Assembly: GCA_015064185.1 (NCBI GenBank)
Contig: SVSS01000011.1
Span: 1 to 43,527 of the forward strand
Direction: 5' to 3'
From: Oscillospiraceae bacterium
Lineage (GTDB): Bacteria; Bacillota; Clostridia; Oscillospirales; CAG-272
Length of the DNA stretch: 43,527 bases
Part shown: positions 8,156 through 21,312 of the stretch, in pieces
How positions within the stretch are numbered: the stretch's first letter is position 1
How the letters are laid out: each line of letters opens with the position of its first letter
The notes under the pieces: model-generated
The model's input: the letters and a program-made list of their open reading frames with translations, nothing else
Told to the model about the DNA's origin: nothing
Database searches by the model: none
Made by a program: the position numbers and the translations under genes

Positions 8156-8231
8156 CGGGATGTAGCGCAGTTGGTAGCGCGCCTGGTTTGGGACCAGGAT
8201 GTCGCAGGTTCAAATCCTGTCATTCCGACCA
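8156..8231 (+). tRNA. tRNA-Pro (anticodon TGG)
   Basis: The acceptor stem CGGGATG pairs with CATTCCG (one G-U pair). The anticodon stem CCTGG/CCAGG encloses TTTGGGA, reading TGG. The T-arm contains GGTTCAAATCC, and the 3' end ACCA is encoded. It is the first gene of a two-tRNA transcript. Confidence 0.97.
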
Positions 8232-8328: not shown

Positions 8329-8405
8329 GGAGGCGTAGCTCAGTTGGTCAGAGCGCACGGTTCACATCCGTGAGGTCATGGGTTCGAGCCCCCTCGTCTC
8401 CACCA
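8329..8405 (+). tRNA. tRNA-Val (anticodon CAC)
   Basis: The acceptor stem GGAGGCG pairs with CGTCTCC; the anticodon stem CACGG/CCGTG encloses TTCACAT, reading CAC. The T-arm has GGTTCGAGCCC and the encoded end is ACCA. It shares the promoter of tRNA-Pro; the 97-base spacer between them contains small hairpins (CCCCGATCATCGGGG near 8247; AGGCGAAG/CTTCGCCT at 8294-8323) that could guide processing. Its T-arm and acceptor sequence is copied in the repeats downstream. Confidence 0.97.
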
Positions 8406-8468
8406 TAACGAAAAGGCACCCGTTTGGGTGCCTTTTTGCTTTGGTGCGCCTCGGGGGTGTGAGAACCC
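8379..8468 (+). repeat. Long palindrome centred on the tRNA-Val terminator, with an inverted copy of the tRNA 3' end
   Basis: The left arm (8380-8421) runs from the T-loop through the acceptor stem and CCA to the terminator stem. The right arm (8426-8468), read in reverse complement, gives GGTTC, a C-rich block, a CACCA-like end, then AAAAAGGCACCC, parallel to the tRNA. Pairing is strongest at the terminator and weaker through the acceptor region. Confidence 0.75.
8411..8437 (+). terminator. Intrinsic terminator of the tRNA-Pro/tRNA-Val transcript
   Basis: GGCACCC (8415-8421), four-base loop, GGGTGCC (8426-8432), then TTTTT. It begins 6 bases past the CCA end of tRNA-Val. Confidence 0.92.
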
Positions 8469-8472
8469 ATAT

Positions 8473-8532
8473 GGGAAGAATGCCGATTTTGCAAGGCAAA
8501 CGGCGGTGTTTAGCCGCCGAGGCATTCTGTTT
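8473..8532. repeat. AGAATGCC hairpin element, Val-locus copy 1
   Basis: GGGAAGAATGCC at the left and GGCATTCTGTTT at the right form the outer stem; an inner GGCGG/CCGCC hairpin surrounds TGTTTAG. It is nearly identical to 8652-8711 and clearly related to 21102-21162. Confidence 0.8.
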
Positions 8533-8651
8533 ATTTTGGGCACGAGTGCCCGAAATGGACGAGCCCCCTCGCACGCCGCACCCGTTTGGGTGCCTTTTCG
8601 TTATGGCTCGACTCGGGGTGCGAGAACCCACTGTTTTGCGCAGCAAAACAT

Positions 8652-8711
8652 GGGAAGAATGCCGATTTTGCAAGGCAAACGGCGGTGTTCAGCCGCCGAG
8701 GCATTCTGTTT
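8652..8711. repeat. AGAATGCC hairpin element, Val-locus copy 2
   Basis: It is almost the same sequence as 8473-8532; the inner loop reads TGTTCAG instead of TGTTTAG. It is preceded by a TGTTTTGC/GCAAAACA hairpin that replaces the CCCATATGGG of copy 1. Confidence 0.8.
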
Positions 8712-8856
8712 ATTTCGGGCACGAGTGCCCAAAATGGACGAGCCCCCTCGCACGCCGCACCCTTTTAGGTGCCTTTTCGTTATGGCTCGACTCAGCACCC
8801 CCTAAACCATCTTTTTCATTATTTTTTCCTTAAATCAACTTCTTTCTCATTTTCGG

Positions 8857-8885
8857 TTGACAATTCTCTCATTTTAGTATAAAAT
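8857..8885 (+). promoter_or_regulatory. Predicted promoter of the cysteine synthase gene
   Basis: TTGACA (8857-8862), 17-base spacer, TAAAAT (8880-8885); an alternative -10, TATAAA, starts at 8878. It lies about 30 bases before the start codon. Confidence 0.72.
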
Positions 8886-8914
8886 TTTAACAGACTATAT
8901 TTTGAGGTAGCTAC

Positions 8915-9841
8915 ATGATTTGTAATTCTATTTTAGATGCACTTGGCAATACGCCCCTGATTCGGCTCTCGCGCCTTGCCGACCCCGAGGGTGCGGAAAT
9001 TCTTGTAAAATTCGAAGGGCTGAACGTCGGTGGCTCTATCAAAACGCGCACGGCTTACAATATGATCCTGGCGGCAGAACGCGAAGGGCTGATCACACCC
9101 GACACGATCATTGTTGAGCCCACCAGCGGAAATCAAGGCATTGGGCTTGCGCTTGTTGGCGCAGTACGCGGCTACAAAACCAAGATCATTATGCCCGATT
9201 CTGTCAGTGAGGAGCGCCGCAAGCTTGTGGAGCACTACGGTGCCGAGGTCATTCTCATCCATGATGCGGGCAATATCGGCGACTGCATTGAGGAGTGCCT
9301 GCAAACGGCGCTGCGCATGCAACGCGAGGATCCGCGCGTGTTTGTGCCCCAGCAATTTGAAAACCCCAACAACGTAGATATTCAGCGCAAGCAAACGGGT
9401 GTTGAGATCCTCGAGCAGGTAAACGGCCCGATCCACGGCTTTTGCTCGGGCATTGGCACGGGCGGTACGATCACAGGCATTGGTGAAACGCTGAAGGCTG
9501 CAAATCCCGACATGGAAATCTGGGCAGTTGAGCCTGAGCACGCGGCGATCCTTTCGGGGGGATCTATCGGCACCCACCTGCAAATGGGCATTGGTGACGG
9601 GCTCATCCCCGCCATTCTCAACCAAAACATTTATAATGACATCTGCATTGTAAAGGATGAAGAAGCGTTATCCACAGCCAAACGGCTTGCCAGCGAGGAA
9701 GGTATTATGTGCGGCATTTCCAGCGGCACAAACGTGGCAGCGGCAATCAAGCTTGCCAAAAAGCTGGGAAAAGGCAAAACCGTAGTAACCGTGTTGCCCG
9801 ACACTGCCGAGCGCTATTTTTCAACCCCTCTTTTTGAATAA
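8915..9841 (+). CDS. cysK: Cysteine synthase (O-acetylserine sulfhydrylase) family, PLP-dependent
   Basis: 308 residues, the usual length. Expected reaction: O-acetylserine plus sulfide to cysteine, in the cytoplasm. Motifs: NVGGSIKTR with the PLP lysine Lys43, PTSGNQGIG (69-77) for substrate binding, GIGTGGTITG for the cofactor phosphate, GISSGTN, and the ending LPDTAERYFSTPLF, which is typical of CysK. Two differences from the common CysK pattern are visible: the lysine is followed by TR rather than DR, and the loop has NQG rather than NTG, so an alternative amino-acid donor is possible. GAGGTAG precedes the start. It is a single gene with its own promoter between two tRNA loci. Confidence 0.93.
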   Translation: MICNSILDALGNTPLIRLSRLADPEGAEILVKFEGLNVGGSIKTRTAYNMILAAEREGLITPDTIIVEPTSGNQGIGLALVGAVRGYKTKIIMPDSVSEERRKLVEHYGAEVILIHDAGNIGDCIEECLQTALRMQREDPRVFVPQQFENPNNVDIQRKQTGVEILEQVNGPIHGFCSGIGTGGTITGIGETLKAANPDMEIWAVEPEHAAILSGGSIGTHLQMGIGDGLIPAILNQNIYNDICIVKDEEALSTAKRLASEEGIMCGISSGTNVAAAIKLAKKLGKGKTVVTVLPDTAERYFSTPLFE

Positions 9842-9870
9842 AACTTTTTCAATTTTTTTAAAAAATAGTA

Positions 9871-9899
9871 TTGACAACCCCCTTTTTGTGTGCTATAAT
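9871..9899 (+). promoter_or_regulatory. Promoter of tRNA-Arg
   Basis: TTGACA (9871-9876), 17-base spacer, TATAAT (9894-9899), preceded by TGC. Confidence 0.88.
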
Positions 9900-9925
9900 A
9901 CCGAAGTACGCCGAAAGGGGTATAT

Positions 9926-10002
9926 GCGGCATTAGCTCAGCCGGATAGAGTGCCTGGCTACGAACCAGTAGGTCGGGGGTTCGAATCCCTCATGCCGCGC
10001 CA
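9926..10002 (+). tRNA. tRNA-Arg (anticodon ACG)
   Basis: The acceptor stem GCGGCAT pairs with ATGCCGC, followed by G and an encoded CCA. The anticodon loop CTACGAA reads ACG (A34 normally becomes inosine in tRNA-Arg). The first pair of the anticodon stem is a C/U mismatch; the other four pair. The T-arm has GGTTCGAATCC. Confidence 0.96.
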
Positions 10003-10063
10003 TAACAAAAGGGTCGCCCTTGTGGCGACCCTTTTGTTATGGCGCAGCATGGGTTGATTCGAA
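9980..10063 (+). repeat. Long palindrome centred on the tRNA-Arg terminator, with an inverted copy of the tRNA 3' end
   Basis: The left arm includes GTTCGAATC, CATGCCGCGCCA (T-arm, acceptor and CCA) and the terminator arm. The reverse complement of the right arm reads CTTCGAATC, CATGCTGCGCCA, then the same terminator arm. Over the 27 bases nearest the loop the arms differ at a single position. This is the clearest of the three tRNA-mimic palindromes. Confidence 0.88.
10007..10038 (+). terminator. Intrinsic terminator of tRNA-Arg
   Basis: AAAAGGGTCGCC (10007-10018), short loop, GGCGACCCTTTT (10024-10035), then GTT. The A and T flanks make it able to work in either direction. Confidence 0.88.
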
Positions 10064-10280
10064 GCTCCCTCTGCGAGCCTTGGTTCGCAGAATGGGGTTC
10101 GCATACCCCGACCGAAGATCGAAGAGCTTGCTCTTCAGGCGCAGGGCGTGGGTATCTTCGCGCGCCGCGCGAATACCCCTCATGCCGCCCTTGTGGCGAC
10201 CCTTTTGTTATGCCTCAGCATGGGTTGATTCGAAGCTCCCTCTGCGAGCCTTGGTTCGCAGAATGGGGTTCGCATACCCC
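10016..10280 (+). repeat. Direct repeat of the tRNA-Arg terminator half and downstream hairpins
   Basis: 10016-10109 and 10187-10280 are the same 94 bases with only a few changes, 171 bases apart. Each holds the right terminator arm, the inverted tRNA 3' end, a CTGCGA/TTCGCAG hairpin and GGGGTTCGCATACCCC. Just before the second copy, 10171-10189 carries CGAATACCCCTCATGCCGCC-like sequence, a partial direct copy of the tRNA-Arg 3' end, 188 bases after the original. Confidence 0.88.
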
Positions 10281-10289
10281 TCACCCCAA

Positions 10290-10320
10290 TCATAACCACC
10301 CGTCAAACGGGTGGTTATGA
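10290..10320. repeat. Isolated ACCACCCG hairpin unit of the dispersed repeat
   Basis: TCATAACCACCCG, a TCAAA loop, CGGGTGGTTATGA: a perfect 13-base stem. The core ACCACCCGTCAAACGGGTGGT is shared with the repeats at 1-126 and 37301-37430. It is followed by TTTAA, so it could act as a weak terminator. Confidence 0.8.
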
Positions 10321-10380
10321 TTTAAGGAATACCTCTGACCTCTTTGGGCAACACTGTTTTAGAGAGGCGGTGAACAATGC

Positions 10381-11004
10381 ATGAACGAGAGATACGCAGT
10401 AAAAACCCTATCCCTTTTAACCGTTACATTGGCGGTCTACTTAATTTTATGGCAAGCGCTTGTTCGTTATTTTGATTTCCCCGTATACTATTACGGGCGG
10501 CTTATTGAGGTGCTTTCGCTCATTTTATTTGCAGCACTCGCGTTTTCCACGCCCATGAGATTTGAAGAGATGGGCATCATCGTGCCACGTTCCACGCTTT
10601 TTCGTTCCTTGGCGTTGGGTACGGCTGTTGGACTTTTATTCGTTGTGGGCTTGATCGCCTCGCGTGCCGTGCTCGGGCTTGAAATAGCCTTTTCTTGGCA
10701 CATTCGGGGGGATATTTCGCGCGCGACCTATTTTTTGGTTGCTCCTTTTCAAGAGGTGCTCGCCAAAAGTGTGATGCTTTACAGCTTCGAGCTGGTTTTT
10801 GATAGGCAGCATCCGCACGTGTCAAATTTCATGTCAGCGCTTACCTTTGGGGCGTTTCACGTGGTATACGGCATTAAAATGATGCTGCTTGCCATGCTGT
10901 TATCCCTGATAACGGGGTGGATATTTCGGCGCGAGCGCTGCGTGTGGGGATGCGCCGTGGCGCATTTTGCCTGCGGATTTTTTCCCGTATGCTTCGGGTT
11001 TTAA
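10381..11004 (+). CDS. Polytopic membrane protein resembling CPBP/CAAX-type intramembrane proteases, active site altered
   Basis: 207 residues with about six membrane segments. The architecture and the three conserved regions resemble the CPBP (Abi/Rce1) family: PFQEVLAKS where the family has EExxxR, then LTFGAFHVVYG matching FxxxH, then AVAHFACGFF matching the third motif with His. The first glutamate is replaced by Gln and the Arg by Lys, so proteolytic activity is doubtful; it may be a non-catalytic relative. GAGGCGG lies about ten bases before the ATG at 10381. A DUF6472 gene with its own promoter follows. The family link is inferred from motif order, not from overall identity. Confidence 0.65.
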   Translation: MNERYAVKTLSLLTVTLAVYLILWQALVRYFDFPVYYYGRLIEVLSLILFAALAFSTPMRFEEMGIIVPRSTLFRSLALGTAVGLLFVVGLIASRAVLGLEIAFSWHIRGDISRATYFLVAPFQEVLAKSVMLYSFELVFDRQHPHVSNFMSALTFGAFHVVYGIKMMLLAMLLSLITGWIFRRERCVWGCAVAHFACGFFPVCFGF

Positions 11005-11008
11005 CGGC

Positions 11009-11037
11009 TTGCAAAATTCCTTGACATGTGCTATACT
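11009..11037 (+). promoter_or_regulatory. Predicted promoter of the DUF6472 gene
   Basis: TTGCAA (11009-11014), 17-base spacer, TATACT (11032-11037) preceded by TGC. A TTGACA at 11021 is too close to the -10 box to serve it. Confidence 0.6.
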
Positions 11038-11070
11038 TTTAGCAACCGCTTTTAAAAGGGAGGGCACACG

Positions 11071-11271
11071 ATGTCAACGCAACAGAAAAAGCTGCCGCAA
11101 TCAAGCTGCGAGAGCTGCGAGTTTTACGATTATGACGAATACTACGAGGAATATACCTGCTCGATGCGCCTTGACGAGGATGAGATGCGAAGATTTCTCA
11201 CGCGCGAAACCGCCTCCTGCCCCTATTACCGCTTTTACGATGAATATAAAAGCGTACACAAGCAAATCTGA
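11071..11271 (+). CDS. Small DUF6472 family protein, cysteine-containing
   Basis: 66 residues, very acidic and tyrosine-rich. Four cysteines appear as CESC near the N-terminus, one in EYTCSMRLDEDEM, and one in ASCPYYRFYDEY. This layout (CxxC, C, ... CPYY followed by a DEY motif) matches the DUF6472 family of Clostridia as I remember it. Four spaced cysteines suggest a metal site. AAAAGGGAGGGCACACG precedes the ATG. Its own promoter and terminator make it a single-gene unit. Function unknown. Confidence 0.8.
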   Translation: MSTQQKKLPQSSCESCEFYDYDEYYEEYTCSMRLDEDEMRRFLTRETASCPYYRFYDEYKSVHKQI

Positions 11272-11282
11272 AAAAGCTGCAA

Positions 11283-11321
11283 AATGCCCTGCCTGCACCT
11301 TGGTGTTGGCAGGGTATTTTT
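11283..11321 (+). terminator. Intrinsic terminator of the DUF6472 gene
   Basis: AATGCCCTGCC (11283-11293), 14-base loop, GGCAGGGTATT (11308-11318), then TTT. Confidence 0.82.
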
Positions 11322-11387
11322 GGCAATATTTTATAAAATGTAGAAAAATTCATAAAAAAATCACACAACCTGACGAAAAAATAGAGC

Positions 11388-11418
11388 TTGACAGTTGATT
11401 TATGCGCAACAATATGAT
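11388..11418 (+). promoter_or_regulatory. Possible promoter of the ABC exporter operon
   Basis: TTGACA (11388-11393) with TATGAT (11413-11418) at a 19-base spacing. The -35 box is perfect but the spacing is long, so the exact -10 is uncertain. Confidence 0.5.
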
Positions 11419-11476
11419 AAAATATTTCTATCTGTAAAAACCGCGGCACTCACCCTGCCGCTGAAAGGAACTACAT

Positions 11477-12550
11477 ATGATAAAAATCGATCATCTGGTC
11501 AAAAACTACGGTGCCAACCGCGCGGTTGACGACATCAGCTTTGAGGTCGCCCCCGGTGAGATCGTAGGGTTGCTGGGCCCCAACGGCGCCGGAAAAAGCA
11601 CGACCATGAATATTCTCGCAGGCTACCTCTCCTCAACCTCGGGGCGTGTGCTGGTAGATGGGCTTAACGTGCTTGATCAGCCGCTTGAGGTCAAGCGCCG
11701 CATCGGGTATCTGCCCGAGCAGCCCCCTCTTTACCTTGATATGACGGTAGAGGAATACCTCATTTTCGTCTACAATCTCAAGGGCTGTACCCTCAACCGC
11801 ACCAAGCACCTGCAGGAGATCTGCGAGGTGGTAAAGCTTACCGATGTGTACAAGCGCCTGATCAAAAATCTTTCCAAGGGCTTCCGTCAGCGCGTTGGCA
11901 TTGCGCAAGCACTGATCGGCAATCCCCCCGTTATCATTTTTGACGAGCCGACCGTCGGGCTTGACCCCAAGCAGATCATTGAGATCCGCAACCTTATCCG
12001 CACCCTCGGGCGCGACCATACCGTTATTCTCTCCACGCATATTCTGCAGGAGGTACAAGCCGTATGCGACCGCATTATCATCATCAACAAGGGGCGCGTG
12101 GTGGCAGACGAGCTCACAGAAAACATCAACCGCGTGGGCGCAAGCTGCAACCGCTATCAAGCAAAGATCTGCGGACCGCAGCGCGAGGTGCTTTCCATGC
12201 TCCGCGACCGCAGCGATGTGGTGTTTGCTGAGGCGCTCTCCGCGCGTGACGGCGAGGCTTATGTGTACCACATTGAAAGCACAAAAGGCATTGATATTCG
12301 CAAGTCGCTGTTCTATGCACTCTCCGCCAAAGGCTGGCCTCTGATCGGGCTTGAAACGCTTGGCATGAACCTTGAGGACATCTTTATCACCGTTGTCGAT
12401 AAGACCAGCGACACGGCAGGACAAAGAAAGCAAGGGCGGGCAGGCAAAAAGAGCCCCTCTCGCAGCGCCGAAAAAGACATTGCGCAATCCATTCTTGATG
12501 CCACTGCCGCAAAGCAGGAAAGCATTGCACCCTATGAGGGCGACGAATAA
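11477..12550 (+). CDS. ABC transporter ATP-binding protein (GldA/ABC-2 type)
   Basis: 357 residues. Nucleotide-binding domain in the first ~220: Walker A GPNGAGKST (34-42), Q-loop region YLPEQPPLYLDMT, signature LSKGFRQRVGIAQAL, Walker B VIIFDEP, and the switch His in STHILQEV. A C-terminal extension of about 135 residues follows, ending in a Ser/Lys/Arg-rich tail (KKSPSRSAEKD). This subunit powers an ABC-2 exporter. AAAGGAACTACAT precedes the start. It is the first gene of four: ATPase, permease, GldG-like protein, DUF4340 protein. The exported substrate is unknown. Confidence 0.93.
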   Translation: MIKIDHLVKNYGANRAVDDISFEVAPGEIVGLLGPNGAGKSTTMNILAGYLSSTSGRVLVDGLNVLDQPLEVKRRIGYLPEQPPLYLDMTVEEYLIFVYNLKGCTLNRTKHLQEICEVVKLTDVYKRLIKNLSKGFRQRVGIAQALIGNPPVIIFDEPTVGLDPKQIIEIRNLIRTLGRDHTVILSTHILQEVQAVCDRIIIINKGRVVADELTENINRVGASCNRYQAKICGPQREVLSMLRDRSDVVFAEALSARDGEAYVYHIESTKGIDIRKSLFYALSAKGWPLIGLETLGMNLEDIFITVVDKTSDTAGQRKQGRAGKKSPSRSAEKDIAQSILDATAAKQESIAPYEGDE

Positions 12551-12570
12551 AACGCCTAAGTTCCAAAGAT

Positions 12571-12587
12571 CGTGCCGCCACGGCACG
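12571..12587 (+). other. Short hairpin between the ABC ATPase and permease genes
   Basis: CGTGCC, GCCA, CGGCACG pair perfectly; AAAAAGAAAGGAG follows. No U-tract follows on the plus strand, so it is not a terminator; it could stabilise mRNA or affect initiation at the permease start. Confidence 0.5.
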
Positions 12588-12631
12588 AAAAAGAAAGGAG
12601 TGCCCACCACCCGCGGGCTGACCGAAATACT

Positions 12632-13375
12632 ATGTTTGCTATTTTTAAAAAGGAGCTGCGTGCATATTTTACAACACCGATCGGATTTGTATATTCCGGT
12701 GTATTTCTTGCAGCAGCCGCACTGATCTGTGCCTTTACCACCTTGCAGCAGGCAAGCTATAATACATCCTCGTATTTTCAGTACCTGCTCTTCACCTTCA
12801 TCGTGCTGATCCCTCTTCTCACGATGCGTATGTTTTCTGAGGAGCGCAAAACAAGGACCGAGCAGCTGCTGCTCACGGCTCCCATTACCATTACGGGCAT
12901 GGTGCTTGGCAAATATTTTGCGGCTCTTACGCTTTTTGCCTCAACCGTGCTGGCTTCGTGCCTAAACTTTGTTCCCTTGCTTGGCTACACCATTGCTGAG
13001 CAGGCTGCCTCGACCTCAGACACTCACATTGGCCCTGTTGGCGGTCAGCTTGTGGGCTGCTTGCTTGGTGTTCTGCTCATCGGTGCTGCGTTCATTGCCA
13101 TCGGCCTTTTCATATCCTCGCTGACCGAAAACCAGCTTGCCTCCGCCGTGATCACCATTGCCGTGCTGGCGGTGCTGATCTTTGTGGGCATTGTCGCCGC
13201 GCAAGTCAATTCAAGCGTGGTACGCACTATCCTCAGCTCGATCTCCGTTCTGAGCCGCTATGATAACTTTTCGCTTGGCTTGTTTGATTTTTCCGCTCTG
13301 CTGTATTATGTATCGATCAGCGGTGTGTTTATTTTCCTTACGGTGCGCATTTACGAAAAGCGCCGTTGGGGTTGA
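12632..13375 (+). CDS. ABC-2 type permease subunit (GldF-like)
   Basis: 247 residues with six membrane segments. MFAIFKKELRAYFTTPIGFVYSGVF is split across the N-terminal amphipathic stretch and first segment; the phrase TPIGFVY is typical of this permease family. RMFSEERKTRTEQLLLTAPI is the cytoplasmic coupling region. The start at 12632 fits the family; an in-frame GTG at 12572 would add 20 polar residues and is less likely, although the best AAAGGAG lies about 30 bases before 12632 rather than close to it. It assembles with the upstream ATPase. Confidence 0.88.
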   Translation: MFAIFKKELRAYFTTPIGFVYSGVFLAAAALICAFTTLQQASYNTSSYFQYLLFTFIVLIPLLTMRMFSEERKTRTEQLLLTAPITITGMVLGKYFAALTLFASTVLASCLNFVPLLGYTIAEQAASTSDTHIGPVGGQLVGCLLGVLLIGAAFIAIGLFISSLTENQLASAVITIAVLAVLIFVGIVAAQVNSSVVRTILSSISVLSRYDNFSLGLFDFSALLYYVSISGVFIFLTVRIYEKRRWG

Positions 13376-13390
13376 TCGGAGGTGCTACAC

Positions 13391-14920
13391 ATGAATCTGA
13401 CACATACCAAAAAATTCCGTCACGGTAGCGTTTCCATTGCGCTTACCGTTATTGTGATCGCTGCGGTCATTCTTCTGAATGCCATTTTCACGGCACTTTC
13501 GCAAAAATATCTTTGGTACATCGACATGACGCCCGAGCCTCGCTTCACCCTCTCAGAGGAAGCGAAGCAGGTCCTTGAAAACATGGATACCTCAAAGGAG
13601 GTAAACATCATTCTTTGCGATGAAAAATACGCATGGGAGGAGGACACCATCCAGCTTGAGGTCTTGAAGACTGCTCTTGATATCGAATTGCTCTTCCCGA
13701 ATGTACATGTCCGCTATACCGATATTTACACCAATCCCTCGTCGGTGAGCGAATACCGTGAGCTCACGGGCAAAAACATTACCACACAAAGCGTCATCGT
13801 CACCTGCGGGAATGCCGTGCGCGTGTATAATCTTGAGGACTTCTTTGTGCTTGACAGCCAAGACTACGTCAGCGGCTATGACGGAGAGCAGGTGTTTGTT
13901 TCCTCCTTGCTTTCCGTAACCCAGGCAAGTGCCCCCATGGCCTGCATCACCAGCAACCACGGTGAGGCCTACAGTGAAGCGCTCCTTCAGCTCCTTGAGC
14001 AGATCGGCTTCCAGATCAAGGCAGTGGATCTCACAAAGGAGGACCTACCCGCCGAGTGCCGCTTGCTCGTGATCTTTGACCCGCAATCCGACTTTGTGGT
14101 AGGTGGCCTTTCCGACGTTTCCGAGATCAGCAAGATCGAGGAATTTCTTGACAAAAACAATTCGATGATGGTATTTGTCGACAAGGACACGCCTTATCTG
14201 CAAAACCTTGAACAGCTGCTTGCTGAGTGGGGCATTGAGATCGCGCGCACCGATGACAACGACAACACCGTGATCGAGGACCTTGCTTCCTCTTTGACGG
14301 TGAACGGCTACACCAACAAGGCCATCTACGAAGAGGGCGGCATGGGTGCTGATATCACAAAGCACATGCGTGAGAATGCTGTTCCGAAAACGGTTGCCTT
14401 CCCCAACACCACATCCCTGCGCTTCTCCTCACTTTACCAGGAAACGCGCTTTGACGGCTATCGCTCCGCACACTATTCAGGCAATGTAGAGCGCCGTACC
14501 TGCTACAACGTCTTCTTCTCCTCAGCTACCGCCGTTGCTAAGGCAAAGGGCGAAACTGTATCCGAGGCATCGGCAGATCTGCCCTACACCTATATGATGC
14601 TTTCCTGCCAATCGGATGCGGATGATGCAAATAACGCGGTCACGCACTCCTTTGTGTTGGCATGTGCCTCTACCGACTTTGCCGCACCGGCAGCTCTGAA
14701 TCGAAGCTATGGCAACGCATCTGTGCTCTCCTACGCATGCAACACCATGGGCAGCTTGGTCGTACCCGTATCGCTTGACTGCAAATATTACGCCAGCATG
14801 GAGATCACCAGCATTACCGCCAAGGCGGCAACGCAGTTTACCGTGATCTTCACCGTAGTTCCCGCTTCTATCGTATTCATCGCCGGCATTTATGTGATGA
14901 TAAGGAGAAAGCACGCATGA
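13391..14920 (+). CDS. GldG-like ABC exporter auxiliary protein
   Basis: 509 residues. One N-terminal membrane segment (about 17-38), a large extracytoplasmic domain, and a C-terminal membrane segment (about 483-504) before RRKHA. Features of the GldG/ABC_transp_aux family: early MTPEPRFTLSEEAKQVLENM, VNIILCDE, then an NHGEAYSEALLQLLEQIGF stretch and IEEFLDKNNSMMVFVDKDTP. The start at 13391 is set by CGGAGGTGCTACAC; the GTG three codons upstream overlaps that site. These proteins are thought to work with ABC-2 exporters; the role is not defined. The stop overlaps the next start by 4 bases. Confidence 0.82.
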   Translation: MNLTHTKKFRHGSVSIALTVIVIAAVILLNAIFTALSQKYLWYIDMTPEPRFTLSEEAKQVLENMDTSKEVNIILCDEKYAWEEDTIQLEVLKTALDIELLFPNVHVRYTDIYTNPSSVSEYRELTGKNITTQSVIVTCGNAVRVYNLEDFFVLDSQDYVSGYDGEQVFVSSLLSVTQASAPMACITSNHGEAYSEALLQLLEQIGFQIKAVDLTKEDLPAECRLLVIFDPQSDFVVGGLSDVSEISKIEEFLDKNNSMMVFVDKDTPYLQNLEQLLAEWGIEIARTDDNDNTVIEDLASSLTVNGYTNKAIYEEGGMGADITKHMRENAVPKTVAFPNTTSLRFSSLYQETRFDGYRSAHYSGNVERRTCYNVFFSSATAVAKAKGETVSEASADLPYTYMMLSCQSDADDANNAVTHSFVLACASTDFAAPAALNRSYGNASVLSYACNTMGSLVVPVSLDCKYYASMEITSITAKAATQFTVIFTVVPASIVFIAGIYVMIRRKHA

Positions 14921-16968
14921 CACAACAGAACACTAACCGCTCCGTGGTTAGGATCAAAACTGCCCTGCAACGCCAACGCCGCATGGTGATCTACCTGCTG
15001 ATCGCGGTAGCGATCCTTGGTGTGGCACTAGGGCTTACGCTCTTTTTCACCTCGCGTACCGCCTTTATTGATCCGACCGACGGCGTCAAATACTACGTTG
15101 CCAAAAAAGACGGCGTTTATGTGCTGCAAACTACCGACGGTGAGGTGTTGCCTACCACCTCAGAGGGCAACTATGTGACCTCTGCGGGAACGATCGTATA
15201 TGTAGACGACACCGGTGAGTTCAGCACCGTAGCTGCAGTTCTTATCGAGGACGGAGAAACCGTTAAATTTAATTCCTTTAATGGCAAATATGACGTGCTG
15301 CTCTATCCCCTGCTTGAGCGTAATGACATTTCCGCTATTGAGGTGCATAATAAAAACGGCAGCTTCAGATTTTTAAGACAGGATATCATGAATAACGATG
15401 AGTTGGTTGATACCGAGTTTGTCATTGAAGGCCGCGAAGACCTTACGGTCGATGAAAGCGTTTTGTTTGCAACGCTGGTATATTTTACGGGCAGAACGCA
15501 AACAATGCTGCGCCTTGATACCAATCGCGTGAAGGAGCTGGGGTATGCCGAATACGGTCTGCCCGAAACCCCCGAGAGTGCCACGCAATATTTTGTGATC
15601 TTTGCAATGGACGGCACCTCACACAAGGTCATCATTGGTGACGAGATCCCCTCCGGCAACGGCTATTATGTGCGCTATGCGGGCCGTGATGCCGTGTATG
15701 TTCTCAGCGAGCTGACAAAGAGTGAATATAACGGCACCTTTAAGGAGGCGCTGCTTGGGCGTGTGGAGGATTATGTCACGCTCCCCACGATCTCTTACAC
15801 CATGGAGTCAACCAATTATTTTGACGTTTCTGACTTCAAGCTCTACAAGAAGGGCGTAAGCACCCCCATCATCGGTTTTTCCTACAGCGGCTCGATCGAC
15901 AAACGAAACAACACCTTTTACTCCAGCATTCCCTACAAAACAGATTCCGATCTTTCCGGATATTCCATCAACTCCTACACCGTAGATGACTGCCTGTACG
16001 CGCTTTACACATGGGAGCCCGATTTTGTGGTAGCGCTTGGAAAGGCAGATAACATGGGCGATATTGATACCAACGAGTGGCTCAAGCCTTACGGCTTGGA
16101 TACCAACTCCTACGCCTATCAGTTTTCCTTCTTCTTCAACCGTGTACGCACCTATAATAAGGAAACGGGCAAGGATTCGGTTAAGCGTGCCGACCAAGAA
16201 AAGCACATCGTTTTAGTAAGCGAAAAGCAGGAGGACGGCTATTATTACGTCTATAACCTCTGCTACACATACGACAGCGAAACCAAGGATTTCACGGAGC
16301 TGGCCCCCGGCTATAACATGATCGTGGCAATCGACGAATCGCAGCTCAATTTTCTGTTCTTTTCGCAAAAGGATTGGATCTCCGATGACCTATTTTCGGG
16401 CTCTATCTCTTACCTAGAGGAGATTGCGATCAAGGTTGCTCCCGGCATGATCAGCCAATATCCTGCGGGATATCAGCAGACCTTCTCGCTCGACAACTCC
16501 GAAACCCTGAAGTATCTTGCAGAAAATCCAAGCACCTCCTCTAAGATCTCCACCGATCGGTTGATCGTTCGAGATGGCGCAGGTAAGGTGCTCAACGCCA
16601 TGCAATTTAAGCATTTTTATCAGTCACTGCTTTATACCACCTGCCCCGGCTATTCCGATCTTACACAAGCGCAGAAGCAAGCACACATCGATTCGGGCAC
16701 AGACGGTGCCGCGCTTGTCATCAAGCTCAAATACGTGCTGCGCGAGCTCAATGAGGACACAGGCTACTATGAGGAAACAGGAGAAGTCATTGTGCGTGAA
16801 TACTGCTTCTACGAAAACCTCTCCGCTCCCCTGCAATTTTTCACCACAGTAAACGGCGCGGGCGATTTCTATCTCCCCACCTCCCGTATTAAAAAGGTGC
16901 TCAACGATATCACCAAGCTGTACGGCACACCCGAAACCGACCGTATTTATTATGATAGCTTGACTTGA
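14917..16968 (+). CDS. DUF4340 domain protein, predicted exporter-associated membrane-anchored protein
   Basis: 683 residues. A cytoplasmic N-terminus with basic residues is followed by a membrane anchor (about 24-46, YLLIAVAILGVALGLTLFF) and a very long extracytoplasmic region. The DUF4340-type segment includes ISAIEVHNKNGSFRFLRQ, TRVKELGYAEYGLPETPESAT and HKVIIGDEIPSGNGYYVRYAG. ATGA overlap with the GldG-like gene shows translational coupling, and a terminator follows at 16991-17024, so the operon ends here. DUF4340 partners of GldA/F/G-type ABC systems are common in Bacillota, but the function is not known. Confidence 0.85.
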   Translation: MTQQNTNRSVVRIKTALQRQRRMVIYLLIAVAILGVALGLTLFFTSRTAFIDPTDGVKYYVAKKDGVYVLQTTDGEVLPTTSEGNYVTSAGTIVYVDDTGEFSTVAAVLIEDGETVKFNSFNGKYDVLLYPLLERNDISAIEVHNKNGSFRFLRQDIMNNDELVDTEFVIEGREDLTVDESVLFATLVYFTGRTQTMLRLDTNRVKELGYAEYGLPETPESATQYFVIFAMDGTSHKVIIGDEIPSGNGYYVRYAGRDAVYVLSELTKSEYNGTFKEALLGRVEDYVTLPTISYTMESTNYFDVSDFKLYKKGVSTPIIGFSYSGSIDKRNNTFYSSIPYKTDSDLSGYSINSYTVDDCLYALYTWEPDFVVALGKADNMGDIDTNEWLKPYGLDTNSYAYQFSFFFNRVRTYNKETGKDSVKRADQEKHIVLVSEKQEDGYYYVYNLCYTYDSETKDFTELAPGYNMIVAIDESQLNFLFFSQKDWISDDLFSGSISYLEEIAIKVAPGMISQYPAGYQQTFSLDNSETLKYLAENPSTSSKISTDRLIVRDGAGKVLNAMQFKHFYQSLLYTTCPGYSDLTQAQKQAHIDSGTDGAALVIKLKYVLRELNEDTGYYEETGEVIVREYCFYENLSAPLQFFTTVNGAGDFYLPTSRIKKVLNDITKLYGTPETDRIYYDSLT

Positions 16969-16985
16969 TCTGTTGCGCATCAAAC

Positions 16986-17029
16986 AAAAACCGCATTTTC
17001 TATCGCAAAGGATAGAAAATGCGGTTTTT
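16986..17029. terminator. Bidirectional terminator between the exporter operon and spoVG
   Basis: AAAAACCGCATTTTCTATC, loop GCAAAG, GATAGAAAATGCGGTTTTTC: a 14-base perfect stem (16991-17004 with 17011-17024) with A and T flanks that would serve transcription from both sides. Confidence 0.92.
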
Positions 17030-17058
17030 CTCATACAGCGCATCGTGGCGTGTACTCC

Positions 17059-17086
17059 GGTCGCAAAGCGACCTTTATTTCTTTTT
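17059..17086 (+). terminator. Possible second terminator after the exporter operon
   Basis: GGTCGC, AAA, GCGACC followed by TTTATTTCTTTTT. The stem is only six pairs, and it lies 35 bases beyond the stronger bidirectional terminator. Confidence 0.45.
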
Positions 17087-17396
17087 AAAATACAGGTGCA
17101 ACATCCTCAACAGCGGCCTGCTCGGGGGCTGCCTCTGCTGCAGCAAGCGCCTGCTCGTAAGCGGCAATCACCGCATCCTCAAGTGTGGCACGGAACTGCG
17201 CGTTAATGGGATGCACGATATCACGGTAGGTATCGTCGGGATTTTTGCGGCTGGGCATGACAATGAAAAAGCGATCTCTTGCATGAATGACCTTGATATC
17301 ATGCACAGCAAGCTGACTGTCAAACGTAACCGAAACAACGGCCTTCATGGGTCCCTCATCAAACAATTTGCGAATTTTAATATCTGTGATCTGCAT
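17085..17396 (-). CDS. spoVG: SpoVG, septation/sporulation regulator and RNA-binding protein
   Basis: 103 residues. The protein opens with MQITDIKIRKLF and contains MKAVVSVTFDSQLAVHDIKVI, FFIVMPSRK and YRDIVHPINAQFRATLEDAV, all of them SpoVG hallmarks. It ends in an Ala/Glu/Pro-rich tail. The start at 17396 has CAAGGAGGCAAAAA just upstream; the reading frame extends 16 codons further but those are not SpoVG-like. SpoVG binds nucleic acid and influences septum formation; it is found in both sporulating and non-sporulating Bacillota. It stands alone and diverges from murC. Confidence 0.97.
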   Translation of the reverse strand: MQITDIKIRKLFDEGPMKAVVSVTFDSQLAVHDIKVIHARDRFFIVMPSRKNPDDTYRDIVHPINAQFRATLEDAVIAAYEQALAAAEAAPEQAAVEDVAPVF

Positions 17397-17564
17397 TTTT
17401 TGCCTCCTTGAAGTTTTTGTCATAATACATGGCATTTCTGGCATGCTTTTAGTATAAAGTGTTTTTGTGGAAGTTATTCAATCGCCATGTGTGCGTTTTG
17501 TGAAAGCGTCCGCAAAAATACTATATTTTTCTACATTTTTTGTGCAATATTGGGAGGAACCGAC

Positions 17565-18965
17565 ATGTCTGTTGAAAATACGCATCACACCCCCGCCGAA
17601 ATTGCGGTATCGCTCATGGGAAAAACAAAGCTGTGGTTTATCGGCATCGGCGGCATACATATGTGTGCCCTTGCGCTCATCTCCCGCGCGCACGGCTTTT
17701 TGGTTGCAGGCTCCGATCATGCCGAAAATGAAAATACGGCACGCTTGCGCCGTGCCGGCGTTGCGGTATATCCCCAACACAATGCCTCTCAAATGGCAGA
17801 ATTTGATGCCGTCATTTACACCCTAGCGATCACCCCCGACAACCCCGAATATCTTGCCGCCAAGCGTCTGGGGCTCCCTGTTTTCTCCCGTGCCGATTAT
17901 CTTGGATACCTCATGCACAGCTACCCCTCTCGCATCGGCATAGCGGGCAGCCACGGCAAAAGCACTACAACGGCAATGCTGGGTGAAATATTTGATGTCG
18001 CAGGGCGCCACCCAAACGTGGTGTGCGGCGCGGTAATGCAGCGATTTGGCGCACCGTTTGTGGCAGGCGGCGGCAATGACTTCATTTTTGAGGCTTGCGA
18101 ATACGGCAATTCCTTTCTCCGGTTGCCGCCAACGCTTGCCGTTATACTGAATGCCGAGCTTGACCACGTGGATTTTTTCACCGACAAGGCTATGCTGCTT
18201 CGTGCCTTTGGCACCTTTGCTTCAGGCGCGCAAAAAGCCATTCTCCCGTCAGACGATGCCGCGCTGCACGCCGCCCTGCCCGATACCACAGGGCGTGTCA
18301 CCTTTGGGATAGAAAGCGGTGCCGATTACCGTGCGGAAGCGCTTGCGGAAAACGCGGGATTTTTCCGCTTTGATCTGATCCTTCCGCGCGGTGCCGCGGG
18401 GCGCGTTACGCTTGGCGTGGCGGGTGTACACAATGTAAAAAATGCCTTGGCAGCGGCAGCGGCAGCAGACCTTTCGGGTGTGAATGCCGCCGATATCCTC
18501 GTGGGGCTCGCCGGCTTTCGAGGAGCTCGGCGACGTATGGAATACCGCGGTATTTTTTGCGGGGCGCGCGTGTTTGACGATTACGCACATCACCCCACCG
18601 AAATTGCCGCCACGCTAAAAACAGCACGAGACATGGCGGCGGGTGGGCGCGTGTTTGCGGTTTTTCAATCCCACACCTACTCGCGCACAGCGGCATTCTT
18701 TGAGGATATCTGCACCGCGCTCAAAGGCGCTGACCGCGTGATCGTGGCAGACATTTATCCCGCGCGCGAAACCGACACACTTGGCATGAGCGCGGCAGGG
18801 CTTGCCGCAGGTGTGGGGGCGCACGGGGCGTACGTGGGCGGGCTCTCGGATATCACGGCGACTTTGGTGCGTGAGCTTGCCCCGGGCGACCTTGTGGTAG
18901 TAATGGGCGCGGGTGATATCGACCGTATTTTTGGGGAATTTTCCAAAAAGCACTTTACTTTATAG
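17565..18965 (+). CDS. murC: UDP-N-acetylmuramate-L-alanine ligase
   Basis: 466 residues. Cytoplasmic enzyme that adds L-alanine to UDP-MurNAc, the first peptide step of peptidoglycan synthesis. N-terminal Rossmann motif GIGGIHMCALA (family: GIGGxGM), ATP loop GSHGKST, central ECGNSFLRLPP-like substrate segment (here EYGNSFLRLPP), NAELDHVDFF, NVKNALAAAAAA, and C-terminal DYAHHPTEI and FQSHTYSRT. The start at 17565 follows GGGAGGAACCGAC; the upstream 26 in-frame codons are AT-rich and hydrophobic and are not coding. A methyltransferase and hslO follow. Confidence 0.96.
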   Translation: MSVENTHHTPAEIAVSLMGKTKLWFIGIGGIHMCALALISRAHGFLVAGSDHAENENTARLRRAGVAVYPQHNASQMAEFDAVIYTLAITPDNPEYLAAKRLGLPVFSRADYLGYLMHSYPSRIGIAGSHGKSTTTAMLGEIFDVAGRHPNVVCGAVMQRFGAPFVAGGGNDFIFEACEYGNSFLRLPPTLAVILNAELDHVDFFTDKAMLLRAFGTFASGAQKAILPSDDAALHAALPDTTGRVTFGIESGADYRAEALAENAGFFRFDLILPRGAAGRVTLGVAGVHNVKNALAAAAAADLSGVNAADILVGLAGFRGARRRMEYRGIFCGARVFDDYAHHPTEIAATLKTARDMAAGGRVFAVFQSHTYSRTAAFFEDICTALKGADRVIVADIYPARETDTLGMSAAGLAAGVGAHGAYVGGLSDITATLVRELAPGDLVVVMGAGDIDRIFGEFSKKHFTL

Positions 18966-19023
18966 CATAAATCGGCTAAAATAAAAAAGTAACGATTTTT
19001 AAATGCCAAGGGGGGAATATGAT

Positions 19024-19776
19024 ATGAAGGCCTATGAAGCGCTTGCCGCCGTTTACGATGCACTGAACGGTGATGTTGACTATGCCGCCTTTGCCTCCTT
19101 TTATGAGGCTGCGTTTCGGCGCGCGCATCTTGCGCCCGACCTTGTTCTTGATCTTGGCTGCGGCACGGGAAAAATGACAACCGAGATGGCGAAGCGCGGC
19201 TATGATATGATCGGCATTGACGGCAGTGCCGAAATGCTCTCCCACGCGTTTGAGCGAAAAAATGCCGAGGGGCAACCGGGTATTCTTTTTTTACAGCAAA
19301 GCATGCAAAGCTTTGAGCTTTACGGCACAGTTGGCGCCGTGATCAGCTCGCTTGACTGCATCAATTATCTCACCGACAAGAACGATCTTGACCGTTGCTT
19401 TTCTCTGGTGCACAACTATCTTGACCCAGACGGCATCTTTTTGTTTGACGTAAACACACCCTATAAATTTGAAACCGTGTTTGGCGACAACGCGTATATA
19501 TTAGAAAATGAAGATTGCTACTGCGGCTGGCAAAACGAATACCAAAAAGATAGCGGCATTTGCCGTTTTTACCTCTCCGTATTCACAAAAGAAGCGGATG
19601 GCACCTATTGGCGCACGGACGAGGAGCAGCAGGAGCGATGCTATACAAAAGAGGAGCTCACGGCAGCGCTGACAAGGGCGGGATTTGGCGAGATCGAATT
19701 TTTTGGCGACGTTGATATGAGCGCCCCCACCGATACCACCGAGCGTTGGTTTATTAAGGCTATTTGTAAAAAGTGA
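19024..19776 (+). CDS. Class I SAM-dependent methyltransferase
   Basis: 250 residues. The SAM motif I is LVLDLGCGTGKMT, with the acidic residue after strand 2 in MIGIDGSAEML, and the post-motif region VISSLDCINYL. The small-molecule methyltransferase fold is full length, with a C-terminal cap (TKEELTAALTRAGFGEIEFFGDV). Start 19024 lies just after GGGGGGAATATGAT. The stop is 9 bases before hslO, so the two are co-transcribed, probably with murC upstream (58-base gap). Substrate unknown. Confidence 0.9.
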   Translation: MKAYEALAAVYDALNGDVDYAAFASFYEAAFRRAHLAPDLVLDLGCGTGKMTTEMAKRGYDMIGIDGSAEMLSHAFERKNAEGQPGILFLQQSMQSFELYGTVGAVISSLDCINYLTDKNDLDRCFSLVHNYLDPDGIFLFDVNTPYKFETVFGDNAYILENEDCYCGWQNEYQKDSGICRFYLSVFTKEADGTYWRTDEEQQERCYTKEELTAALTRAGFGEIEFFGDVDMSAPTDTTERWFIKAICKK

Positions 19777-19785
19777 GGATATAAA

Positions 19786-20682
19786 ATGGAACAGGCAACC
19801 ATCCTGCGCGGCATGACGCGCGACGGCAGCGCACGCATTCACGTGATCAATTCAAGGGCGATCGTAAACGAAGCCATTCGCATTCACCAAACGACCCCCA
19901 CCGCCACGGCGGCTCTTGGCAGATTGCTGACCGCCGCATCGGTCATGGGCTCAATGCTCGGCGAAAAAACCGACGTGCTTACCCTCACAGTGGCAGGCAA
20001 CGGCCCTCTTGGCAAGCTGATCGCCACCTCGGATTATATCGGGAACGTACGCGGCTACGTGCAAAATCCCACAGCGGATCTCCCTCTTAAGAAAAACGGA
20101 AAGCTTGACGTGGGTGGCGCCGTTGGAAAAGGGACCCTCACCGTTATCAAGGATATTGGCGGCAAAGAGCCCTATCACGGCACAGTGCCGCTTGTCAGCG
20201 GCGAGATCGCCGAGGATATTACGGCTTATTATGCGGAAAGCGAGCAGCTTCCCACACTGTGCGCGCTTGGCGTGCTGGTAGACGTAGACTGTACATGCCG
20301 CGCGGCAGGCGGTGTTGTTGTGCAGCTCTTGCCCTTTGCAGATACCGCCATTATCGACCAGCTTGAAAAAAATGCCAATTCCCTCTCGAACGTTTCTGCC
20401 CTTTTTGACCGCGGCCTTTCGCTGAAAGATATTGCCGATATTGCGCTTGACGGCATAGAGTACGACTTGTTTGATGAGCTTGACGTCAGTTACCGCTGCA
20501 CCTGCTCGCGCGAGCGTATCAAGGAGGCACTGCAATCCATTGGAGAAAAGGAATTGAACGCAATGCTCGCCGAGCAGGTGGCAGAGGGTAAGCCCGAGGC
20601 ACTTGAGGTGCACTGCCATTTTTGCGGCGCAAATTATACGTTTGACAAGCAGGAGATCAACGGCTTTTTCAAAAAATCTTAA
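19786..20682 (+). CDS. hslO: Hsp33 redox-regulated chaperone
   Basis: 298 residues, full length. The N-terminal domain opens with [18 protein letters not shown] and contains [20 protein letters not shown]. The zinc-binding redox switch is complete: Cys238-x-Cys240 ([10 protein letters not shown]) and Cys277-x2-Cys280 (CHFCG). Oxidation of these cysteines unfolds the linker and activates the holdase against protein aggregation. GTGAGGATATAAA gives a ribosome binding site. It ends 19 bases before the promoter of the next tRNA operon; no clear terminator separates them. Confidence 0.97.
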
Positions 20683-20700
20683 AAAACTTAAAAAAAAGTG

Positions 20701-20729
20701 TTGACAAGCATCAAACGCTATGATATAAT
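20701..20729 (+). promoter_or_regulatory. Promoter of the tRNA-Asp/Phe/Gly operon
   Basis: TTGACA (20701-20706), 17-base spacer, TATAAT (20724-20729), preceded by TGA. Confidence 0.88.
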
Positions 20730-20770
20730 ATCAAAGTCGCCGGTTCGGAATACCGATCCTGCGCATAACT

Positions 20771-20847
20771 GGCCCGGTAGTTCAGTCGGTTAGAACGCTA
20801 GCCTGTCACGCTAGAGGTCGTGGGTTCGAGTCCCATCCGGGTCGCCA
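20771..20847 (+). tRNA. tRNA-Asp (anticodon GTC)
   Basis: The acceptor stem GGCCCGG pairs with CCGGGTC, then GCCA. The anticodon stem CTAGC/GCTAG encloses CTGTCAC, reading GTC. The T-arm has GGTTCGAGTCC. It is first of three tRNAs in this transcript. Confidence 0.97.
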
Positions 20848-20852
20848 GTTTT

Positions 20853-20928
20853 GCCTCTGTAGCTCAGTTGGTAGAGCAGGGGACTGAAAATCCCCGTGTC
20901 GTTGGTTCGATTCCGACCGGAGGCACCA
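20853..20928 (+). tRNA. tRNA-Phe (anticodon GAA)
   Basis: The acceptor stem GCCTCTG pairs with CGGAGGC, then ACCA. The anticodon stem GGGGA/TCCCC encloses CTGAAAA, reading GAA. It begins five bases after tRNA-Asp. Confidence 0.97.
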
Positions 20929-20930
20929 TT

Positions 20931-21006
20931 GCGGATTTAGCTCATTTGGTAGAGCGCGACCTTGCCAAGGTCGAGGTGGCGGGTTCGAGCCCCGTAATCC
21001 GCTCCA
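20931..21006 (+). tRNA. tRNA-Gly (anticodon GCC)
   Basis: The acceptor stem GCGGATT pairs with AATCCGC, then TCCA. The anticodon loop TTGCCAA between GACC and GGTC reads GCC. It begins two bases after tRNA-Phe. Its 3' end is copied in the downstream repeats. Confidence 0.97.
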
Positions 21007-21073
21007 ACAAAAAAAGACACCCCCAATCGGGGGTGTCTTTTTTTGCTGTTGCGTCTTACGGGGGCGAGAACCC
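20981..21073 (+). repeat. Long palindrome centred on the tRNA-Gly terminator, with an inverted copy of the tRNA 3' end
   Basis: The left arm begins GGGTTCGAGCCCCGTAA and continues through the tRNA end to AAAAAAAGACACCCCC. The reverse complement of the right arm begins GGGTTCTCGCCCCCGTAA and ends with the same terminator arm. The acceptor-proximal part is the least conserved. Confidence 0.82.
21009..21044 (+). terminator. Intrinsic terminator of the tRNA-Asp/Phe/Gly operon
   Basis: AAAAAAAGACACCCCC (21009-21024), loop AATC, GGGGGTGTCTTTTTTT (21029-21044): a 16-base perfect stem that includes its own U-tract. Confidence 0.93.
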
Positions 21074-21101
21074 GTTTGGATTTTCAAAGAAAATCCAAGG
21101 C

Positions 21102-21312
21102 GGGAAGAATGCCGATCTTGCCTTGCAAGTGGTGGCGTTTAGCCACCAAGGCATTCTGTTTTCCTCAAGCGCCAAGGGTGCTTGAGGTCGACGAGCCCCG
21201 TAACTTTGTTTTCCCACCCCATTCGGGGTGGTTTTTCTCGTTCTCGTGCGGCCTACGGGGGCGCTTTCCTCAAGCGCCTCGCGCTTGAGGTTGACGAGCC
21301 CCCGTAATCCGC
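21102..21312 (+). repeat. tRNA-Gly-linked repeat units with AGAATGCC hairpin and 3'-end copies
   Basis: 21102-21162 is the AGAATGCC/GGCATTCT hairpin also found at the tRNA-Val locus. It is followed by a CCTCAAGC/GCTTGAGG hairpin and CGACGAGCCCCGTAAC at 21190-21205, a partial direct copy of the tRNA-Gly 3' end 206 bases after the original. A CCACCCC/GGGGTGG hairpin with TTTTT follows (about 21211-21238), then an inverted CCTACGGGGGCG piece, another CCTCAAGCGC/GCGCTTGAGG hairpin, and GACGAGCCCCCGTAATCCGC at 21293-21312, a second, longer direct copy 103 bases later. This fills most of the 320-base gap to the next gene. Confidence 0.82.

Follow-up and report, generated by a model that had tools for sequence, protein, structure and literature searches.

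The stretch of DNA considered here, referred to below as the window, comprises 43,527 bases and is one contig of the 1.53-Mb, 16-contig genome of an Oscillospiraceae bacterium (G000; 95% complete). The best 80 named relatives of one protein encoded in the window come mostly from uncultured gut Clostridia assemblies, many of them ruminant. The window carries three tRNA loci at which tRNA-Val(CAC), tRNA-Arg(ACG) and tRNA-Gly(GCC) are each followed by repeat units that enclose a core between copies of the 3′ end of that same tRNA, and we found such copies of the own tRNA downstream of most of the tRNA operon ends tested in this genome. Within a unit the order is terminator, inverted copy, core, GC-rich hairpin and direct copy, and the features of the three loci, all on the forward strand (+), are as follows.

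8156..8231 (+), tRNA-Pro(TGG), first gene of the Pro-Val operon
8329..8405 (+), tRNA-Val(CAC), the copied tRNA
8401..8446 (+), Val terminator, the centre of a palindrome that extends into the CCA (arms 8401-8421/8426-8446, 86% complementary)
8441..8468 (+), Val unit 1, inverted copy of the acceptor/T-arm of tRNA-Val, with GAGAA for the T-loop complement TCGAA
8478..8530 (+), Val unit 1, class A core (model R1)
8533..8556 (+), Val unit 1, GC-rich hairpin, with GGGCACGAGTGCCC at 8538-8551
8560..8571 (+), Val unit 1, direct copy of the 3′ part of the T-loop and the T-stem 3′ strand of tRNA-Val
8578..8606 (+), Val unit 2, second terminator, 86% complementary to 8403-8431
8603..8629 (+), Val unit 2, inverted copy
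8657..8709 (+), Val unit 2, class A core
8712..8735 (+), Val unit 2, GC-rich hairpin, with GGGCACGAGTGCCC at 8717-8730
8739..8750 (+), Val unit 2, direct copy
8757..8797 (+), remnant of a third Val terminator/inverted arm, 73% to the first
9926..10002 (+), tRNA-Arg(ACG), the copied tRNA
9991..10051 (+), Arg terminator palindrome (28-nt arms 9991-10018/10024-10051, 96% complementary)
10040..10063 (+), Arg unit 1, inverted copy
10064..10168 (+), Arg unit 1, class C core (profile match 10055-10178)
10150..10178 (+), Arg CGCGCG stem, overlapping the start of the direct copy
10170..10188 (+), Arg unit 1, direct copy
10186..10280 (+), Arg unit 2, a truncated 95-nt repeat, 98% to 10015-10109, lacking the right part
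20771..20928 (+), tRNA-Asp(GTC) and tRNA-Phe(GAA), upstream in the Gly operon
20931..21006 (+), tRNA-Gly(GCC), the copied tRNA
20990..21063 (+), Gly terminator palindrome (35-nt arms 20990-21024/21029-21063, 86% complementary)
21047..21074 (+), Gly unit 1, inverted copy with GAGAA loop
21107..21159 (+), Gly unit 1, class A core
21163..21187 (+), Gly unit 1, GC-rich hairpin CCTCAAGC...GCTTGAGG
21192..21203 (+), Gly unit 1, direct copy
21247..21263 (+), Gly unit 2, inverted arm
21268..21290 (+), Gly unit 2, GC-rich hairpin with the CCTCAAGC stem
21295..21312 (+), Gly unit 2, direct copy

At all three loci the terminator is, as the initial annotation had described, the centre of a palindrome (arms 86, 96 and 86% complementary at Val, Arg and Gly respectively) whose far arm is an inverted copy of the tRNA end (8441-8468, 10040-10063 and 21047-21074). 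The direct copies that it reported are likewise present, whereas the distance of 175-206 bases given for them was somewhat long, the first ones starting 155, 168 and 186 bases past the end of the tRNA. A GC-rich hairpin ahead of each direct copy, also part of that description, stands at Val and Gly, whereas the CGCGCG stem at Arg overlaps the direct copy. By eye, it is the last tRNA alone that is followed by units in the Pro/Val and Asp/Phe/Gly clusters, in line with the placement first described. Two units each are found at Val and Gly, no class A core being seen in Gly unit 2, and the second unit at Arg is truncated; tandem spacing is 179 bases at Val and 171 at Arg. The direct copies at these three loci end before the CCA. 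Folds predicted for the three tRNA-plus-unit stretches were more stable than each of 200 shuffles, with z values of -7.4 (Val), -8.7 (Arg) and -10.8 (Gly).

Infernal lists 42 tRNA matches in G000, and ARAGORN finds 41 in the stretches read, giving 30 operon ends, of which 28 were testable and two were left out because a contig end lay less than 120 bases away. The 3′-terminal 48 bases of each tRNA were scored against the 450-base stretch downstream of every tRNA, using 10,000 re-pairings, and an end was flagged when a direct or inverted own copy was found at p<0.02, a rule that by itself would yield approximately one of the 28. An own copy was flagged downstream of 22 of them. The summed own-pairing scores were 348.0 for direct and 317.5 for inverted copies, and the maxima reached by the re-pairings were 264.0 and 257.5 respectively (permutation z of 14.6-15.3 direct and 12.5-12.7 inverted); the own tRNA ranked top for the direct copy at 18 and for the inverted copy at 13 of the 28 ends. 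As the own scores lie above all 10,000 re-pairings, and 22 ends were flagged where about one is expected, chance is excluded as the source of the own-tRNA copies. The six ends at which no own copy was flagged are those of Thr-ggt (where a remnant can be seen by eye), Thr-cgt, Met-cat of locus L053, the fMet-like Met-cat of locus L060, Arg-cct and Ser-cga. The proposal that the loci share one architecture, with copies specific to the local tRNA, therefore holds genome-wide and beyond the three loci for which it was made, and the converse, that copies might be no closer to their own tRNA than to others, is contradicted across the 28 ends. Some contigs start or end at tRNA operons or units (e.g. 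C12 of G000 and loci L332, L334 and L335); short-read assembly may break at such repeats, and the numbers of units may be underestimated.

For the relatives, part of the operon ends was sampled, mostly among the best-scoring tRNA matches listed. Within the same genus, own copies were flagged at 21 of 23 ends in G015 (z of 11.9 direct and 12.6 inverted), 13 of 17 in G013 (9.9 and 7.6), 15 of 22 in G020 (9.6 and 7.6) and 8 of 13 in G003 (5.2 and 5.6). Two genomes from other genera of the same family gave 4 of 12 (G022; 5.5 and 0.6) and 1 of 6 (G023; -0.6 and 1.3), and G039 gave 6 of 18 (2.8 and 6.4). A further 15 genomes, of which 14 each represent another family of the order and one, G021, belongs to the same family, gave flags at 4 of 33 ends; by eye two of these look real (Tyr in G025 and Lys in G029), whereas the flags at G021 and G033 appear to reflect a neighbouring gene or chance. 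The architecture is common in the genus, foremost in G000 and G015, and sporadic across the order.

We also followed isoacceptor tails that differ between genomes, using a test that counts only copies detectable with the tail of the other genome and that keeps the losers. At a threshold of 12 the own tail prevailed over the other in 26 cases against 8 for direct copies (one tie) and in 16 against 5 for inverted copies (two ties); the corresponding figures were 31 against 12 (three ties) and 19 against 7 (five ties) at a threshold of 11, and 36 against 19 (six ties) and 24 against 12 (seven ties) at a threshold of 10. The losers at threshold 11 include loci that have no unit, e.g. Thr-cgt and the Met of L108. 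Where orthologous tRNAs differ, the copies mostly follow the local tRNA, and the variant letters of tRNA-Arg in L070 and tRNA-Val in L153 are carried by their respective copies. An earlier form of the test, which aligned to the own tRNA (302 own-allele, 12 other-allele and 24 neither positions for direct copies), was discarded as biased, since loci without a copy also scored as own.

Units at tRNAs are mostly 130-250 bp long, as judged by eye. The direct copy starts at the boundary of T-loop and T-stem and often runs through the CCA into a new terminator. This boundary was profiled by ungapped identity in 54 copies from seven genomes with an exact T-stem 3′ strand and three exact acceptor bases: identity was 0.13-0.33 at the first three T-loop positions and 0.56-0.81 in the remaining acceptor and NCCA, with 21 of the 54 exact across all 16 bases of T-stem 3′ strand, acceptor and NCCA. 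The T-loop is intact in two of 52 direct copies with an exact T-stem 3′ strand (seven genomes), and its recurrent changes, namely the loss of two T's (9 of 52) and the addition of one base, e.g. TTCAGA (7 of 52), are found at several tRNAs and also in G022, from another genus. The inverted copy covers the CCA, the acceptor and both T-stem strands, with a dip of identity in the T-loop, where GAGAA frequently takes the place of TCGAA at part of the clostridial loci. Between +28 and +100, GAGAA was present at 28 of 119 operon ends, compared with 9 of 119 in a control stretch; GACGAG on the opposite strand was noted by eye.

The cores between the copies fall into classes, of which A, B and C were obtained by iterated profile search of the fetched loci and D was assigned by eye. 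Class A is found at Val, Gly, Gln, Leu, His and Arg-ccg, class B at Lys, Ala and Ser-gga, and class C mainly at Arg-acg, Glu and Gln; His unit 1, Leu-caa unit 1 and the Arg of L070, L071 and L074 are class B-like by eye. Structure and covariation were analysed for class A alone, where 7 of 14 predicted pairs show changes on both sides with pairing kept in at least one of 22 sequences, and on this comparative evidence the class A core appears to be a conserved structured RNA. The class A model matches 17 of the 21 genomes of the genus and, in a 147-genome draw of the order, G000 and two others, the latter weakly and near contig starts. G000 itself has 22 matches, of which 15 lie within approximately 400 bases behind a tRNA, 13 of them sense and two antisense (both at Gly-ccc). 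A 15-base piece of the class A core that occurs in 24 viral contigs was judged to be chance, the pattern being short. At locus L359 (G000 C15:5066-8119) three class A units are interleaved with open reading frames (ORFs) of 263 and 152 amino acids, the best unit having ends like tRNA-Leu-aag; ARAGORN finds no tRNA beside these three units, and the two ORFs gave no Pfam match. The repeat TGCATCTAAATTGACCACACTA stands ahead of two of the three, and in L348 of G012 a unit is followed by the start of the same 263-amino-acid ORF.

Comparison of G000 with the sister species G015 at identical tRNAs showed, by eye, that at Gln-ttg and Met the shared flanks enclose cores that are not the same, and that the core also differs at Glu-ttc. 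The Ala unit is present in G000 and absent in G015 (by eye), and at Thr-ggt the comparison sets a remnant against an intact unit, with no precise junction established. The loop of the Arg terminator is inverted between the two species (CTTGT compared with ACAAG, the G015 side taken from L068), and a local hairpin at Lys is perfect in G000 only, both as seen by eye; an excerpt of PMC8794818 describes inverted loops and multi-base compensations as footprints of template switching. As mixed arrays, class B-like and then A, are visible by eye at His and Leu-caa, core replacement through loss of a unit is plausible. The fMet-like tRNA of G000 (L060/L367, C14:138.2-141.8 kb) has its own unit approximately 1.7 kb away, and the stretch between carries a 23S_rRNA_IVP gene (PF05635); in G015 the fMet-like gene is immediately followed by a unit-like inverted copy. 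Also in G015, ARAGORN reads the tRNA at L371 1098-1174 as Tyr-gta, yet its tail and its position after Gly-tcc and Arg-tct match tRNA-His of G000, possibly through an anticodon change or an assembly error. Elsewhere in the window, at 41578-41669, a glycine riboswitch aptamer (Rfam RF00504) lies within the first part of a mechanically listed ORF starting at 41498, and the true gene start therefore probably lies further on.

By anatomy, the closest known system is the tyrT/RtT repeat of Escherichia coli. At tyrV of E. coli K-12 the units recur at 178 bp and have an inverted T-arm/acceptor copy (score 14.5) with a GAGAA loop, together with a direct copy that is exact over 19 nt between T-loop and CCA; in a positive control Rfam returned four RtT matches (RF00391) at tyrTV, and the RttR annotation ends at record base 1287066, which is the CCA of the direct copy. 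DNA resembling the E. coli unit is present in 4,695 of 5,426 complete E. coli genomes, at a median of three places. Like RtT, the clostridial units lie next to tRNAs, repeat in tandem at approximately 180 bp behind a tRNA operon, follow the order of inverted copy, core and direct copy, the direct copy of the tRNA 3′ end starting from the T-loop, and at part of the loci have GAGAA. In contrast with E. coli K-12, where the one locus read is tyrTV, most operon ends here have units, with copies of the own tRNA and several cores, and the inverted copy is fused to a terminator palindrome of a kind not seen by eye between tRNA and inverted copy at E. coli tyrV. Excerpts of PMC7657543 and PMC8250186 describe a tandem-GA motif in RtT RNA from covariation, and a part of PMC2965389 cites a possible stringent-response role of the E. 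coli tyrT repeat/RtT and a BIME cluster with members resembling rtT. REP/BIME sequences with RAYT (Y1) transposases are likewise short, palindromic, tandem and partly dispersed, whereas the units described here are mostly tied to tRNAs; Y1_Tnp gave one weak match in G000 and matches in 10 of the 21 genus genomes. Trailers of tRNA operons also give rise to tRNA 3′ external transcribed spacer RNAs that act as sponges of small RNAs, and we know of no copies of tRNA ends in these. Among the papers listed in library searches on tyrT/RtT repeats or on structured repeats behind tRNAs, none reports, to judge by title and abstract opening, such units behind most tRNAs of one genome, which is weak evidence of novelty.

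We propose that the units represent RtT-like RNA cassettes carried in tRNA operon 3′ trailers, with arms that are re-copied from the tRNA gene, and we give this reading about an even chance of being correct. The units would be reached by read-through of the terminator, and a helix between the direct and inverted copies could then set the core off as a domain of its own with a tRNA-like 3′ end. The tRNA gene, as the only copy under strong selection, would remain fixed and serve as the template for the arms, which on this proposal accounts for the agreement between the copies and the local tRNA. The arms would be rewritten from the tRNA gene by template switching driven by the palindromes and by recombination among the repeats, processes of which footprints are seen, and cores could be exchanged as mixed tandem arrays gain and lose units by recombination between the tRNA-end repeats. 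A role as RNA, which the initial annotation had named as a third possibility, gains some support from the class A covariation and from the matching anatomy of E. coli tyrT/RtT. As a bolder extension, which we consider unlikely, most tRNA operons would each encode a mimic of their cognate tRNA end, in which the closing helix corresponds to the 12-bp acceptor/T-stem, with NCCA where complete and the core replacing the T-loop; the genome-wide set of mimics would act on tRNA processing, charging or quality control and stay matched through being copied continually from the tRNA gene.

Several observations weigh against the proposal of RtT-like cassettes. For the inverted copies of the 43 loci that passed the score limits, mean duplex energies were -36.9 kcal/mol with the own tRNA tail, -23.1 with the own direct copy, -17.2 with the direct copies of other loci and -15.4 with shuffled sequences. 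As the inverted copy is predicted to bind the tRNA more strongly than the direct copy at 41 of the 43 loci (the direct segments being cut shorter than the tRNA tail), it is primarily a complement of the tRNA, contrary to the simplest idea of pairing with the direct copy, and the own direct copy beats those of other loci as its partner in only 34 of the 43. In addition, the predicted minimum-energy fold unfolds the tRNA at Arg and Gly; at Val the acceptor stem of the tRNA and the unit stay separate. These calculated energies and folds do not establish an inner helix under selection, and RNA made by read-through could be harmful to the tRNA. In G019, of the same genus, 5 of 16 ends were flagged with a z of 5.1 for direct and 1.2 for inverted copies, the inverted set not being significant. 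The possibility that the downstream sequences occur equally at non-tRNA genes was not borne out for the class A core, 15 of the 22 matches in G000 lying behind tRNAs, but seven are not tRNA-adjacent: the three dispersed units beside ORFs at C15:5237, 6566 and 7589, the fMet-type unit that has been displaced, a match at the start of a contig and two matches that are short and partial. At Gly-ccc (L049 of G000) the class A core is antisense to the tRNA, and likewise, by eye, in G015, as if flipped. Finally, RF00391 was matched neither in the window, at the gathering score, nor at 12 other G000 loci at E values up to 1, where low-stringency Rfam searches gave, besides tRNAs, only sub-gathering matches, many of them to microRNA hairpins; these sequence searches do not establish common descent with the RtT of E. 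coli, and the units, which share the architecture but fail RtT membership, are therefore treated here as a variant and not as a member.

The probabilities that we attach to the rival readings overlap, and some readings share steps. A serious, if doubtful, rival to RtT-like cassettes is that the units are functionless by-products of replication template switching at the terminator palindromes, which together with tandem duplication would make and re-make the copies; the copying step is common to both readings. Inverted copies that continue the 3′ arm of the terminator and complement the tRNA best (41 of 43) are what such a process would leave, as are the inverted terminator loop, the hairpin perfect in one of two sister species and the variation in copy number, truncation and loss. 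It accounts less readily for class A cores, which are not of tRNA origin, recurring at several different tRNAs with pairing kept by compensatory changes, or for a GAGAA loop change and a T-loop boundary common to E. coli, and template switching alone would not place one core at many loci.

One of two origins suggested in the initial annotation, a selfish minimal integrating element that enters site-specifically at tRNA 3′ ends and recreates the tRNA end as its attachment site, seems to us improbable. Integrative elements that target tRNAs likewise have direct repeats of the tRNA 3′ end from near the T-loop, and the direct copies here run from the T-loop to the tRNA end, the region used in known attachment sites (PMC2647930, in excerpt). 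Such elements would also fit the finding of one core shared by different tRNAs and of sister species that differ in their core at the same tRNA, the dispersed units beside ORFs, one with tRNA-Leu-like ends, and the location of both integrase-domain matches of G000 near unit-bearing tRNAs (C11:32285-32812, 1.6 kb past tRNA-Ala(-ggc), and C16:24195-24677, 0.5 kb before tRNA-Val-gac). However, integration at many tRNAs would need recombinases and an intact crossover region, and it is therefore disfavoured by there being two phage-integrase domain matches in the genome for 22 flagged ends, none of them among the 10 window proteins scanned, and by a T-loop, the would-be crossover region, that is altered in 50 of 52 copies; moreover, the copies fit the local tRNA and not one donor tRNA.

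Slightly less probable again, although compatible with parts of the other readings, is a cis-acting safeguard, in which the inverted copy in read-through RNA pairs with the tRNA end and the terminator stem, so that the helix is cut by RNase or the tRNA is withheld, as a switch on tRNA yield. The strong predicted pairing of the inverted copy with the tRNA tail, the minimum-energy folds at Arg and Gly and the Arg palindrome, which continues through the spacer and the CCA, all agree with this, whereas the direct copy and the conserved cores are left unexplained, the Val fold holds the tRNA acceptor stem and the unit apart, the tRNA should, on general grounds, form first under co-transcriptional folding, and by eye no terminator palindrome separates the tRNA from the inverted copy at E. 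coli tyrV. Reverse transcription of read-through tRNA precursors, the other origin first suggested, is scarcely credible: the inverted copy does resemble a primer-binding site for a tRNA 3′ end, but RVT_1, searched alone, has no match in the 95% complete G000 or in any of six genus genomes at least 90% complete, and matches in 3 of 21 overall. None of an integrase, a reverse transcriptase or a RAYT-type enzyme fits the pattern well.

What had been a lone oddity of E. coli tyrT is seen here as a genome-wide pattern, and its dozens of natural replicates make the origin, maintenance and function of tRNA-end repeats testable by comparison. If, as in the proposal of RtT-like cassettes, the arms are rewritten from the tRNA gene, these units would represent an unusually clear case of concerted evolution driven by template switching beside a conserved gene.

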